51,992 bases of DNA from Pelagibacteraceae bacterium AG-345-F21 (GTDB lineage Bacteria > Pseudomonadota > Alphaproteobacteria > Pelagibacterales > Pelagibacteraceae): assembly GCA_003281795.1 (NCBI GenBank), contig QCAW01000007.1, positions 1-51,992 on the forward strand, read 5' to 3'. The number at the start of each line of letters is the position of its first letter. Position 1 is the stretch's first letter. The translations under genes and the position numbers were made by a program. The notes under the pieces are model-generated. The model ran no database searches and was not told the DNA's origin. It was given only the letters and a program-made list of their open reading frames with translations. This document shows positions 9,419-13,291 of this stretch, in pieces.

Positions 9419-10320
9419 TTTTTTTTTCTTCCAAAGTCAGGGGATTCAACATCTTGCCCAGCTTTAATTATCTCTTTTCTTACATTCTTAGTAGAAGCAA
9501 ATATTTTTAAAAGTTTATCACCATTTTTTTCAGTAATAGCTTTTTTAAAATCATCAATGTTCTTAGAGAAATCATCTAAAATCTTCAAAATATTTTCACT
9601 ATTATCAATAAAAATATCCCTCCACATTAAAGGATCTGAAGATGCAATACGAGTAAAGTCTCTTAAACCTCCAGCGCTATATTTAATAATTTCATTTCTA
9701 AATTTTTCATCAGCATTAATTGCTGTTTTTACAATGTTGTATGCTACTGCGTGAGGTAAATGACTTGTTAACGCAAGTATGTGATCATGTTCGTCAATAT
9801 TCATTAATTTTACTTTGCTTCCTAAAAATTCCCAGAATTTTTTTAATTTTTCAACTTTGTCTTTATTGGAGTTTTTGCTATCACAAATAATTGTCCATCT
9901 ATTTTTAAATAGATCTTTAAAACCAGCAGAGGGACCACTTTCCTCAGTTCCTGCTATAGGATGAGATGCCACCCAGGAGATATTTTTTAAATTAAAATTT
10001 TCAAATATTTTATTTACCTCTTTTTTTACTGAACCAGTGTCTGTAATTATAGCATCCTTTTTAAACAAGTCCTTTGCAGATAATAAAACTTCTTTGTAAG
10101 AGCTTAAGGGAATAGCAAGAATTATTAAATCTGAATCTTTTACTGCAGATTGAATATCTTTCGATATATTGTCACATAAGTTTTCTTTTTTTATAGCTTC
10201 GATTACATTCTTTGATTTATCAAAAACCGTAATTGACTTACTAATTTCATTGTTGTTTATATTTCTCAAAATTGACGAGCCTATTAAACCACATCCAATT
10301 ATAGCAATTTTATCAAACAT
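9415..10320 (-). CDS. tyrC: Prephenate/arogenate dehydrogenase
   Basis: A 301-residue NAD(P)-dependent dehydrogenase for tyrosine synthesis. It oxidises and decarboxylates prephenate (or arogenate). The dinucleotide fold opens at IAIIGCGLIGSSIL; ITDTGSVKKEV and the HPIAGTEESGPSAGFKDLF block (catalytic H followed by G-x-E-x-S-G) and LALTSHLPHAVAYN are the expected substrate-binding motifs. No chorismate mutase domain is fused. Preferred substrate cannot be told from the sequence. Its ATG shares one base with the hisC stop, giving the hisC-tyrC pair that often lies beside metX in alphaproteobacteria. Confidence 0.93.
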   Translation of the reverse strand: MFDKIAIIGCGLIGSSILRNINNNEISKSITVFDKSKNVIEAIKKENLCDNISKDIQSAVKDSDLIILAIPLSSYKEVLLSAKDLFKKDAIITDTGSVKKEVNKIFENFNLKNISWVASHPIAGTEESGPSAGFKDLFKNRWTIICDSKNSNKDKVEKLKKFWEFLGSKVKLMNIDEHDHILALTSHLPHAVAYNIVKTAINADEKFRNEIIKYSAGGLRDFTRIASSDPLMWRDIFIDNSENILKILDDFSKNIDDFKKAITEKNGDKLLKIFASTKNVRKEIIKAGQDVESPDFGRKKN

Positions 10321-11396
10321 TAAATCATCTTCCTTAAAGTATTAATAAATTTTTTATTTTCCAAATTGTTTCCAATTGTTATTCTTAAAGAATTTTTAAT
10401 CTTATATACATCCATTTTTCTAACCAATATTCCTTTTTTGGCTAATTTTAAAAATGTTTTTTTTGCACTCCCTCTAATTTTATTAAAGTTTGCCAGTAAA
10501 AAATTTCCATAACTGGAGTTCGTTTCTATTCCTAAATTCTTAAAGTTATCATAAAAAATTTTAGCCCATCTATTAACGTGTTTGATTTCTTTGTTTAACC
10601 ACTTAACATCTTTAATTGATTCCGCCGCGGCGAATAAAGCAGCTCTATTAATATTGAAAGGTGGTTTAGTTTTGTTTAACGCATGTATTAAATTTTTGGG
10701 ACCATACCCCCATCCAATTCTAAGACCTGCAAGACCGTAAATTTTTGAAAATGTTCTTGTAACTATAACATTTGGGGAATTAGAAAATAGCTTCATTCCC
10801 GGTAAGTAATTTTTGTCTTTTACATATTCAAAGTAAGCATCATCAACAACTAACAATATATTGTTTCTTAATTTTTTTCTTAATGTTAACAATTCGTTTT
10901 TACTAATAATTGTTCCAGTAGGATTATTAGGGTTGGCTAAAAAAACAATTTTTGTTTTTTTAGTTACTTTAGAAAGAATATTATTAATAGATATTCTAAA
11001 ATTTTTTTCTTTAGCATATTTAATCTTTGCACCATAAATTTTACTATAAATTCTATAAATTATAAAACTAAACTCAGGAACAATTACTTCATCATTTTTA
11101 TTAATAAATGATTTACATATTAATTCAAATATTTGGTCAGAACCTGATCCAAGTATAATTCTTTTAGGATCAAGTTTAAATTTATTAGCTAGCACTTTTC
11201 TGAGAAAGACACCTTCAGAGTCTGGATATCTTTTTAAATTTTTTGATACTTTGTTAAATTCTTTTATTGCCCTTGGACTTGGGCCCAATGCAGACTCATT
11301 AGCTGAAAGTTTAATTTTCACTGTTTTTTGCTTGTATAAACTTAATCCAGCAACATATTTTTCTGCGTTAATTTTTTTTGGCTTCGGTAAATTCAT
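10320..11396 (-). CDS. hisC: Histidinol-phosphate aminotransferase (possibly also aromatic aminotransferase)
   Basis: A 358-residue class II aminotransferase. The PLP-binding lysine is K218 in TRTFSKIYGLAGLRIGWG. FLANPNNPTG (153-161) and VVDDAYFEY (183-191) bind the pyridine ring and phosphate. KLSANESALGPSPRAI at the start and the RYPDSEG stretch are typical HisC features. It makes histidinol phosphate from imidazoleacetol phosphate. Because it pairs with tyrC, it may also transaminate prephenate or phenylpyruvate, as documented for alphaproteobacterial HisC-like enzymes; this second role is inference. It is transcribed away from metX across the 178 bp riboswitch region. Confidence 0.93.
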   Translation of the reverse strand: MNLPKPKKINAEKYVAGLSLYKQKTVKIKLSANESALGPSPRAIKEFNKVSKNLKRYPDSEGVFLRKVLANKFKLDPKRIILGSGSDQIFELICKSFINKNDEVIVPEFSFIIYRIYSKIYGAKIKYAKEKNFRISINNILSKVTKKTKIVFLANPNNPTGTIISKNELLTLRKKLRNNILLVVDDAYFEYVKDKNYLPGMKLFSNSPNVIVTRTFSKIYGLAGLRIGWGYGPKNLIHALNKTKPPFNINRAALFAAAESIKDVKWLNKEIKHVNRWAKIFYDNFKNLGIETNSSYGNFLLANFNKIRGSAKKTFLKLAKKGILVRKMDVYKIKNSLRITIGNNLENKKFINTLRKMI

Positions 11397-11453
11397 TTTA
11401 TTTCTGTTAATATATAAAAAGCTTTAGTAATGCTAGTTTCATTACATATGAAT

Positions 11454-11482
11454 TTGACAAGTTTACGACTATTTAGTATTAA
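11454..11482 (+). promoter_or_regulatory. Sigma-70-type promoter for the metX SAM-II leader
   Basis: A perfect -35 box TTGACA (11454-11459) is followed by a 17-base spacer and TATTAA (11477-11482), matching four of six bases of the -10 consensus. Transcription would begin about 7 bases on, near 11489, at the first paired base of the SAM-II aptamer. The agreement between predicted start and aptamer edge supports the assignment; it has not been mapped. Confidence 0.65.
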
Positions 11483-11486
11483 TCTC

Positions 11487-11542
11487 TTCAAGGCGCTGAT
11501 TTAACCAAATTGCAGGCGCTTGATAAATATAGCTAAATAGGA
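11487..11542 (+). promoter_or_regulatory. SAM-II riboswitch aptamer
   Basis: The region holds the conserved SAM-II series in order: stem strand GGCGCT, loop GATTTAACC, TTGCA, the return strand GGCGC, TGATAAATA and AGCTAAA. These are the conserved nucleotides of the H-type pseudoknot that binds S-adenosylmethionine, a class found mostly in alphaproteobacteria ahead of metA/metX-type genes. It lies directly upstream of metX, the expected target. The downstream hairpin and U-tract make it a transcription-terminating off switch when SAM is abundant. The P1 helix contains one bulged G in my pairing. Confidence 0.93.
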
Positions 11543-11545
11543 GAT

Positions 11546-11572
11546 AGCCCGGTTTAGCTGGGCTTTTTTTTT
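11546..11572 (+). terminator. Riboswitch-controlled intrinsic terminator
   Basis: The arms AGCCCGG (11546-11552) and CTGGGCT (11558-11564) form a seven-pair stem, one pair being G-U, around the loop TTTAG. Nine T follow (11564-11572). The loop plus the first two bases of the 3' arm (TTTAGCT, 11553-11559) are the exact complement of AGCTAAA (11531-11537) in the SAM-II aptamer. Pairing of these two segments would break the hairpin, giving a simple antiterminator. The U-tract ends two bases before the metX start codon. Confidence 0.85.
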
Positions 11573-11574
11573 GG

Positions 11575-12714
11575 ATGAACGATAAATTAGTAGATATAAA
11601 AAAAATAAACGTTTCAAAACCACTAAAATTAGACTGTGGAAAAACAATAAAAGATTTTCCTTTAGCATATGAGACTTATGGCAAGCTAAGTAATAACAAA
11701 GATAACGCTATATTAGTTTTTCACGCTTTAACGGGCGATCAATTTGTAAGTGAAGTAAATCCAGTAACAAAAAAAGAAGGCTGGTGGATAACGGCTGTAG
11801 GGCCAGGTAAGGCTATTGATACAAATAAATATTTTGTCATTTGTGCAAACGTAATTGGTGGATGTATGGGATCTTTAGGACCAAGAGATTTAAATCCTGA
11901 AACAAAACAACCATATGGATTAGATTTTCCAGTAATTACAATCAAAGATATAGTAAGAGCTCAAGAGTCTTTATTAGAACATTTAGGTATAAAAAAACTT
12001 CTTTGTGCTACAGGTGGATCAATGGGTGGGATGCAACTTTTACAATTTTGTGCAACTTTTCCAGATAAAACTTTTTCTGCTATTCCGATAGCTTGCAGCT
12101 CAAGTCATAGTGCTCAAAATATTGCTTTAAATGAATTAGCTCGTCAGGCTATTATGGCAGATCCTGTTTGGGATAAGGGTAAATATGTTTTAAAAAATTT
12201 ACAGCCAAAAAATGGTTTAGCTGTAGCCAGAATGGTTGGGCATATAAGTTATCTATCGGAAAAAGGCATGCAGGAAAAATTTGGAAGAAAATTACAAGAA
12301 AAAGCAGATTATGAATTTAGTTTTGATGCAGATTTTCAGGTAGAAAGTTATCTAAGACATCAAGGCTATGCATTTGTAGAAAGATTCGATGCTAATTCTA
12401 TTCTTTATATAACAAGAGCAATGGATTATTTTGATCTATCAAAACAATTTAAAGGTGGTTTGATTGAAGCTTTTAGAAATCAAAAAGCTAAATTTTTAAT
12501 TATATCTTTTTCTTCGGATTGGCTTTACACAACTAAGGAAAATAAAGATATAGTCATAGCTCTTAATGCGTCCGGAGCTGATGTTTCGTATTCTGAAATT
12601 ACCACAGATAAAGGACATGACTCTTTTTTAATTGATGAGCCAGAATTTTTAAAAACTATGAAAGGTTTTATAGACTCAATGTATGAAAAATTTAAAAATG
12701 AAAAAAGAATTTAA
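11575..12714 (+). CDS. metX: Homoserine O-acetyltransferase
   Basis: A 379-residue alpha/beta-hydrolase-fold acyltransferase that activates homoserine for methionine synthesis. It has LVFHALTGDQ, GPGKAIDTNKYFVICANVIGG (family block), the nucleophile S149 in CATGGSMGGMQ, the acid in FSSDWLYTTKE and the base H in DKGHDSFLIDE. Some enzymes of this family use succinyl-CoA, which the sequence alone does not exclude. The ATG at 11575 directly follows the terminator U-tract, and no Shine-Dalgarno sequence precedes it at normal spacing. It is controlled by the SAM-II switch and overlaps metW by 17 bp. Confidence 0.95.
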   Translation: MNDKLVDIKKINVSKPLKLDCGKTIKDFPLAYETYGKLSNNKDNAILVFHALTGDQFVSEVNPVTKKEGWWITAVGPGKAIDTNKYFVICANVIGGCMGSLGPRDLNPETKQPYGLDFPVITIKDIVRAQESLLEHLGIKKLLCATGGSMGGMQLLQFCATFPDKTFSAIPIACSSSHSAQNIALNELARQAIMADPVWDKGKYVLKNLQPKNGLAVARMVGHISYLSEKGMQEKFGRKLQEKADYEFSFDADFQVESYLRHQGYAFVERFDANSILYITRAMDYFDLSKQFKGGLIEAFRNQKAKFLIISFSSDWLYTTKENKDIVIALNASGADVSYSEITTDKGHDSFLIDEPEFLKTMKGFIDSMYEKFKNEKRI

Positions 12715-13291
12715 AGTAATTTCAGACTTATTGCCTAACAACACTAGAGTGTTAGACGTTGGTTGTGGTGATGGATCTTTAATGAGTTTCCTTGAAAAAG
12801 AAAAAAATATTGAAGTTCGTGGATTAGAGCTTAATCAAGATAAGGTGCAGCAGTGTATCCATAAAGGCCTACCTGTTATTCAGGGCAATGCAGAAACTGA
12901 ACTGCACCAATTTCCAAATCAATCATTTGATTATGTAGTTTTAAGTCAAACGCTACAAGCATTTTATGACCCTGAGAAAGTATTAAAAGATCTTTTGAGA
13001 GTCGGAAAATCAGTAATTATTTCTATTCCAAATTTTGGATTTTGGAAAGTTAGAGCCAATCTTTTGTTTTTCGGCAAAATGCCAGTTACAAAAACGTTGC
13101 CCAATACATGGTATAATACTCCTAATTTACACATGTGTACAATTAAAGATTTATTCGATTTTTGTGATGAAAAAAATATTAAGATAAAGAAAGTTGTAGG
13201 AGTAAATGAAGACAAGACGTCTTTGATTAAAAAAAGTAATTTAGAAGTTAAAAATCTTTTTTCAAAATTAGGGATTTTTTTAATAGGATAA
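12698..13291 (+). CDS. metW: MetW, methyltransferase-fold partner of MetX
   Basis: A 197-residue class I methyltransferase-fold protein. Motif I is VLDVGCGDGSL; RGLELNQDKVQQCIHKGLPVIQGNAE, FDYVVLSQTLQAFYDPEKVL and VIISIPNFGFWKVR follow and are diagnostic of MetW. MetW is encoded next to metX in alpha-, beta- and some gammaproteobacteria and is needed for full homoserine acetyltransferase activity or methionine synthesis. I chose the ATG at 12698 (MKKEFKVISDLLP) over one five codons earlier because MetW proteins begin close to the [IL]-x-D-L-[IL]-P segment. It would share the SAM-II controlled transcript. Confidence 0.92.
   Translation: MKKEFKVISDLLPNNTRVLDVGCGDGSLMSFLEKEKNIEVRGLELNQDKVQQCIHKGLPVIQGNAETELHQFPNQSFDYVVLSQTLQAFYDPEKVLKDLLRVGKSVIISIPNFGFWKVRANLLFFGKMPVTKTLPNTWYNTPNLHMCTIKDLFDFCDEKNIKIKKVVGVNEDKTSLIKKSNLEVKNLFSKLGIFLIG

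Follow-up and report, generated by a model that had tools for sequence, protein, structure and literature searches.

Our analysis points to a conserved SAM-II transcription attenuator in SAR11 bacteria, with a predicted antiterminator that is built on the ligand-contacting bases of the aptamer itself. The window (the whole 51,992-nucleotide stretch of contig QCAW01000007.1 that was analysed) carries this element in the leader of metX, and we put the probability that the SAM-II riboswitch works as an OFF switch for metX, attenuating transcription by a decision taken while the RNA is being made, at roughly 0.78. The features of the locus are collected in Table 1.

Table 1. Features of the metX leader and its surroundings (positions of the window)
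Feature	Position	Strand	Details
Promoter-like element	11454–11482	+	TTGACA (11454–11459), 17 nt, TATTAA (11477–11482); TTGACA placed by motif, TATTAA by eye
SAM-II (SAM_alpha, RF00521) match	11483–11557	+	25 bits, E 8.5e-4, gathering score 36
P1 stem	11493–11519	+	GCGCU 11493–11497 : GGCGC 11515–11519
Pseudoknot P2	11505–11541	+	CC 11505–11506, UUGC 11510–11513 : GCUAAA 11532–11537, GG 11540–11541
Predicted antiterminator, 5′ strand	11530–11541	+	AGCTAAA and GG inside; from fold prediction
Predicted antiterminator, 3′ strand	11549–11560	+	CC, G, TTTAGCT, G; from fold prediction
Intrinsic terminator hairpin	11546–11564	+	AGCCCGG-TTTAG-CTGGGCT; −11.7 kcal/mol
Terminator T9 tract	11564–11572	+	
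metX, homoserine O-acetyltransferase	11575–12714	+	NF001209, 508.9 bits, cut-off 331; ATG at 11575
metW, next gene of the metX unit	12683–13291	+	TIGR02081, 232.8 bits, cut-off 189.5
hisC, divergent neighbour	10320–11396	−	TIGR01141; start codon at 11396

The MetX protein of the window is 88–92% identical to the best 80 of 256 relatives, all of them Pelagibacteraceae or Pelagibacter. TTGACA is found 5′ of metX in all 81 metX leaders; a consensus promoter scan of 11300–11800 returned no promoters and did not list the TTGACA-17-TATTAA pair. All 81 leaders have the longer upstream ORF on the minus strand, and since hisC is divergent in the window, the leader terminator cannot serve to end an adjacent plus-strand gene upstream.

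The SAR11 sample comprised 172 SAM-II loci, merged by identical sequence into 126 distinct leaders: 68 of type A, 26 of type B, 20 of type C, 9 of type D and 3 others. Loci from other alphaproteobacteria (L112–L141) and a copy of the window (L001) were left out of these counts, and seven added loci (L203–L208, L219) stand outside the pair-run and fold-energy counts. The source locus sets overlap, some of them drawing on the same genomes (e.g. L013 and L142), and some family loci were taken from among the matches listed.

The assignment to SAM-II made in the sequence-only reading is borne out by the RF00521 match together with the P1 and P2 pairing in SAR11 leaders. At 25 bits the window misses the gathering score of 36, which is a curated cut-off and not a property of the RNA; none of 297 family genomes passes this score (218 of them match at E 0.01), so standard annotation would miss the SAM-II elements of SAR11. 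P1 keeps five of five pairs in 126/126 distinct leaders through six arm combinations. Of the two P2a pairs, one is standard in 125 and the other in 123 of the 126, with C-G, U-A and A-U types, when type D rows are scored one base shifted; both P1 and P2 are kept by two-sided changes across the SAR11 leaders. The conserved core motifs GAUUU, UUGC and GCUAAA are present in the window; in the other SAR11 leaders they are no test of membership, because the leaders were picked by those motifs. The window aptamer shares 43 of 52 bases with the widely studied 52-nt SAM-II RNA, and the bases that contact SAM in SAM-II, U46, A47 and A49 (PMC11508383), correspond to window positions 11534, 11535 and 11537, all inside GCUAAA. 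The window RNA would presumably bind SAM.

Between the aptamer and metX lies an intrinsic terminator, as had been proposed, and its hairpin and U-tract are the sole terminator-like site in 11300–11800 (shuffles: mean 0.3, sd 0.5). The seven bases AGCTAAA (11531–11537) of the pseudoknot and their complement TTTAGCT (11553–11559) in the terminator are also where the sequence-only reading had placed them; the segment is common to the ligand site and the putative antiterminator, it is kept in relatives as judged by sequence and comparison, and the platform is indeed compact (43 bases, 11530–11572). The idea of an antiterminator of just these seven bases had to be modified. The pairing exists but is weak on its own (−3.4 vs −11.7 kcal/mol for the terminator), and the target takes in part of the terminator 5′ arm besides the loop and 3′ edge that had been named. 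The predicted antiterminator is extended by two G-U pairs and by GG:CC, which in many relatives is GGG:CCC: when the growing window RNA was folded, 11530–11538 paired with 11552–11560 and GG 11540–11541 with CC 11549–11550, and this was the minimum-energy state until position 11564 was made. Because the antiterminator uses up the 3′ strand of P2 together with some of the terminator 5′ arm, aptamer, antiterminator and terminator are mutually exclusive; by prediction and comparison, the antiterminator would therefore exclude both the terminator and the ligand-bound aptamer. The finished terminator of the window is predicted to be favoured over the antiterminator by about 4 kcal/mol, and antitermination would therefore have to be kinetic here. 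These fold energies and their order are predictions from an energy model that excludes pseudoknot P2 and SAM.

From this arrangement we infer the switch and its direction. P1 and pseudoknot P2 could fold once the RNA to about 11541 has emerged. With SAM bound, GCUAAA and GG would stay in P2 and the hairpin 11546–11564 would form, so that RNA polymerase would stop in the U-tract, right ahead of the start codon. When SAM is absent, the emerging 11549–11560 would pair with 11530–11541 (GCUAAA:UUUAGC, GG:CC and flanking pairs), and this pairing would block the hairpin and let metX be transcribed.

The window by itself offers weak evidence for the complementarity; strong evidence comes from the relatives. 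Dinucleotide-preserving shuffles of the 35 bases that follow the core gave runs of at least seven pairs with P 0.10 and of at least six with P 0.36. Such runs arise because the stretch is T-rich, and at P 0.10 shuffling of the window is not decisive. With the stem fixed and the five-base loop random, the corresponding values are 0.002 and 0.006. Among the relatives, the maximum Watson-Crick run that the core region can form with the terminator measures six to eight pairs in 68/68 type A leaders, which have the stem GCCCRG/CYGGGC and mostly precede metX. It is seven or eight in 24/26 leaders of type B, which have a CCACC/GGUGG-type stem and in most cases a SAM-V-like sequence (by eye) behind it; L155 and L156 of this type reach only 5 and 4 in the region scored. 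The loop TTTAG is unchanged in 80 of the 81 metX leaders and a U-tract of nine or ten T is present in every one of them. By comparison, the mean pairwise identity at 72 fourfold-degenerate metX sites is 0.457, and none of these sites reaches 0.95.

The predicted folds point the same way. Three nucleotides before the hairpin is complete, the antiterminator is the minimum-energy fold in 68/68 type A and 18/26 type B leaders, the early predicted fold of the other 8 type B leaders not being the antiterminator. Measured against the terminator with eight U-tract bases, the best non-terminator fold has a median of −0.2 kcal/mol in type A and −1.9 kcal/mol in type B. Random loops in the same stems bring this fold to +5.8 and +6.45 kcal/mol, respectively, with 0.7% (A) and 0.2% (B) of them equalling the observed median.

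To look at the loop independently of its sequence, we ran a loop-blind pattern, with five free loop bases, on 397 family genomes and obtained matches in 151. The loops among the 150 matches listed (counted by eye) were TTTAG in 116, TCTAG in 14, TATAG in 10 and CTTAG in 8, with TATGG and ATTAG once each. T[CA]T variants break one core pair, and 21 of the 25 among the matches listed come from genus g2. We fetched 34 further leaders from the loop-blind matches, all 25 T[CA]T variants included; 26 of the 34 have a loop that is not TTTAG. Folded three bases before the hairpin is complete, all 34 pair at least four of the six core bases with the terminator. Leaders of genus g2 keep the helix by CAGCUA:UAGCUG, a core-adjacent C-G and GGG:CCC, and the core-adjacent C is found in 23/25 T[CA]T variants. 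In this genus, flanking pairs make up for the loop mismatch.

Covariation between the two segments, which the sequence-only reading had offered as a check, can be assessed in part. The six core pairs cannot covary, because the aptamer side is invariant in the leaders compared; the flanking pairs do change on both sides. Over 148 type A loci, which give 34 distinct rows of 28 nt, four core pairs are kept in every row; the remaining two of the six are kept in 26 and 30 rows. All 34 rows also keep the pair located two bases ahead of the core, and 33 keep the second GG:CC pair, whereas the pair two bases after the core is found in only one. For a 13-pair register over 35 distinct A and B rows, 79.6% of pairs are standard vs 74.4% after shuffling (0/500 shuffles reach the observed value), and slid registers of the same rows give 28–52%. 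The covariation score of this register is 0.141 vs 0.108 (0/500) and the cells changed on both sides number 17 vs 11.7 (8/500), in shuffles that leave in the relatedness of the rows, the leaders sharing descent. Two other pair-count measures do not exceed the shuffles (312 and 448 of 500). The clearest two-sided change adjoins the core, where part of type A has C-G or U-G and type B has G-C. Furthermore, three bases beyond the core also pair in 17/17 distinct type B rows, two of them with G-U.

The published view of the metX SAM-II model RNA is translational, and the alternative that holds up best is a translational switch in which the SAM-folded P2 hides an SD (AGGAG or AAGGGG at the aptamer 3′ end), with termination secondary or absent. 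SD-like strings do follow the core in 66/68 type A leaders, and an in-frame ATG stands beside such a string in 60/81 leaders. In Sinorhizobium metA, the AUG that uses the riboswitch SD lies 74 nt further downstream, beyond a terminator (PMC9373788). Against this, the upstream frame is closed by a stop in the window, and a metX start at an upstream in-frame ATG was rejected: 21/81 leaders are without it, a stop coming first in 18 of these and an upstream start being absent from 3 more, and the hairpin and U-tract persist. Within the last 40 nt of the window leader a single SD-like string occurs; it begins 36 nt ahead of the ATG, on the upstream side of the terminator, and no SD in P2 lies at a normal distance from the start codon there. 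The GG at the aptamer 3′ end is, moreover, already required by the P2a pairs alone. Across the window (1–51,992), SD-like strings are nearly absent 5′ of the starts, in 4 of 48 ATG-started ORFs of at least 150 aa (starts taken mechanically) vs 2 in the control, and there is no G peak, which suggests little SD use in this organism. Given the SD position, the closed frames and the rarity of SD-like strings, we judge SD occlusion unlikely as the main mechanism. A mixed form, in which the SD acts across the hairpin on a distant start as reported for Sinorhizobium metA, is possible.

The attenuation reading has also to be set against a constitutive leader terminator uncoupled from SAM, in which the complementarity would be inherited or would serve another purpose, such as recognition of the loop by an RNA or protein acting in trans. 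In close relatives the terminator stem is as conserved as the loop, both being nearly invariant, as such a terminator would allow, and the terminator below the SAM-II element of Sinorhizobium metA is not predicted to be under its control in the accessible part of PMC9373788. We nevertheless regard this explanation as very improbable: two different stems have a common loop complementary to the aptamer, the three further bases match the type B aptamer in every distinct row, the fourfold sites are far more diverged than the loop, and leaders with a loop mismatch retain the pairing via flanking pairs. Hardly any weight is left for a conventional antiterminator in which the P2a strand (AGG/GGG) pairs with the terminator 5′ arm alone and the core pairing is incidental, as P2a mostly does in other alphaproteobacteria and as the GG:CC of the predicted window fold might suggest, since P2a of SAR11 gives two or three pairs against five or six from the core, and type B leaders pair through GCUAAAGCG.

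The 52-nt metX SAM-II model sequence, which we take to be the crystallised SAM-II RNA of PDB 2QWY, can be placed in its native context. An identical sequence is present in 2/397 genomes (L013 corresponds to one of these two sites), and both copies are followed by GCCCAG-UUUAG-CUGGGC-U9-GG-AUG of metX, the same terminator as in the window. In the literature, the model sequence, which comes from the Sargasso Sea, is printed in PMC8494917, the metX SAM-II RNA is called a rare translational SAM-II (PMC6061858), and it is described with aptamer and platform merged (PMC5780412; PMC10907184). The literature on the model RNA has a translational, merged platform, whereas these two SAR11 genomes have the same aptamer before a terminator. 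We lean towards the view that the model metX SAM-II is natively a kinetically decided attenuator, its antiterminator made of SAM-contacting bases. If so, the expression platform of a much-studied riboswitch would be reassigned, and studies on the 52-nt aptamer alone would have covered half of the switch.

The tandem SAM-II/SAM-V element of bhmT has, like the window, a SAM-II aptamer, a U9 terminator and a GCUAAA complementary to the loop region (PMC9481103, PMC11508383, as far as their accessible parts go). It differs in its stem (ACCACCG/..GGUGGU), its longer pairing and the SAM-V aptamer that comes after, whereas in the window SAM-II is alone and the metX start comes right after the U-tract. 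In the full-length tandem of Pelagibacter ubique, SAM-II was unresponsive to SAM, a result described as ‘somewhat puzzling’ and blamed on the linker, and antisense primers restored the response (PMC11508383). Three primers of that study match L219, the element of which lies at the bhmT coordinates given in PMC2704228 and the source of which is taken as HTCC1062. For the 177-nt bhmT RNA, the pairing CUAAAGCG:CGCUUUAG has a predicted probability of 0.997 and the terminator one of 0.0. Pairing of the core with the terminator could, on this model, explain the silence of SAM-II in the full-length tandem, and the published puzzle would then get a directly testable base-level cause. The rescue by oligonucleotides does not follow from simple folding: the rescuing primers lie outside the predicted pairing, and the predicted antiterminator probability stays at 0.98–0.997 whichever of the three primer sites is blocked.

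SAM-II leaders of other kinds are found in the same family. Type C, at metX of genus g4 (20 distinct leaders: L093, L099, L102–L105, L108, L109, L175–L180, L183–L186, L201, L202), is without this terminator–antiterminator platform, and no hairpin terminator was found in type C leaders. In 20/20, a U-tract 3–4 nt after GCTAAA is followed by CTC(n)CAATTC[AG], a sequence complementary to TGAATTG of the P2 5′ strand and to GAG of the P1 3′ strand; this pairing is part of the predicted fold in all 20. In the three folds inspected, the U-tract pairs with an A-rich stretch of the aptamer. Going by these predictions, type C looks like a third, undescribed SAM-II platform. Type D (L110, L163, L168–L174; 9 distinct) has GGAG immediately behind GCTAAA, with an ATG no more than about ten bases on, which places an SD at a normal distance from the start codon; these are apparently genuine translational SAM-II elements. 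Further leaders of genus g4 (L213, L214, L218, L220, L224, L227, L228, L238–L241) have a compact SAM-II-like core ending in GCTAAA-nnGGA directly before a SAM-V match with no terminator between, another tandem form. The SAM-II leaders L150–L152 of genus g5 differ from types A and B and contain T-tracts and inverted repeats rich in AT.

In transcriptional preQ1-I riboswitches, the 3′ strand of a small H-type pseudoknot is common to ligand binding and the antiterminator. The SAR11 element would likewise draw the 3′ strand of its pseudoknot into the antiterminator, and differs from preQ1-I in ligand, aptamer and host group. Within the SAM-II class, leaders followed by terminators were already known (PMC1273637, PMC9481103, PMC6061858 and PMC2258182, in their accessible parts), and, according to PMC5069961, Pelagibacter bhmT and metX have SAM-II elements that act on transcription. 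Our literature search found no description of an antiterminator formed between core and terminator; Poiata 2009 and Gilbert 2008, which lay beyond its reach, may show parts of it. SAM-II elements of other alphaproteobacteria (PMC1273637; Sinorhizobium metZ, PMC9373788; accessible parts of both) belong to the same class, with methionine genes, a terminator between P2 and the gene and a proposed OFF switch. A terminator scan found terminators in 21 of 30 such leaders, the other 9 loci being without one. Among the 21, P2a pairs with the terminator (at least four bases) in 14, the core (four bases) in 3 and neither in 6. Pairing through the core is therefore not, in our view, general to SAM-II attenuators: the antiterminator is mostly placed on the P2a strand in other alphaproteobacteria and, in SAR11, on the ligand-contacting core.

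SAR11 bacteria count among the sea's most abundant cells. They rely on reduced sulfur compounds (PMC5069961). If our reading is right, the antiterminator would in this group have moved from the P2a strand into the ligand pocket, a clear case in which the aptamer stays fixed and the expression platform evolves around it.
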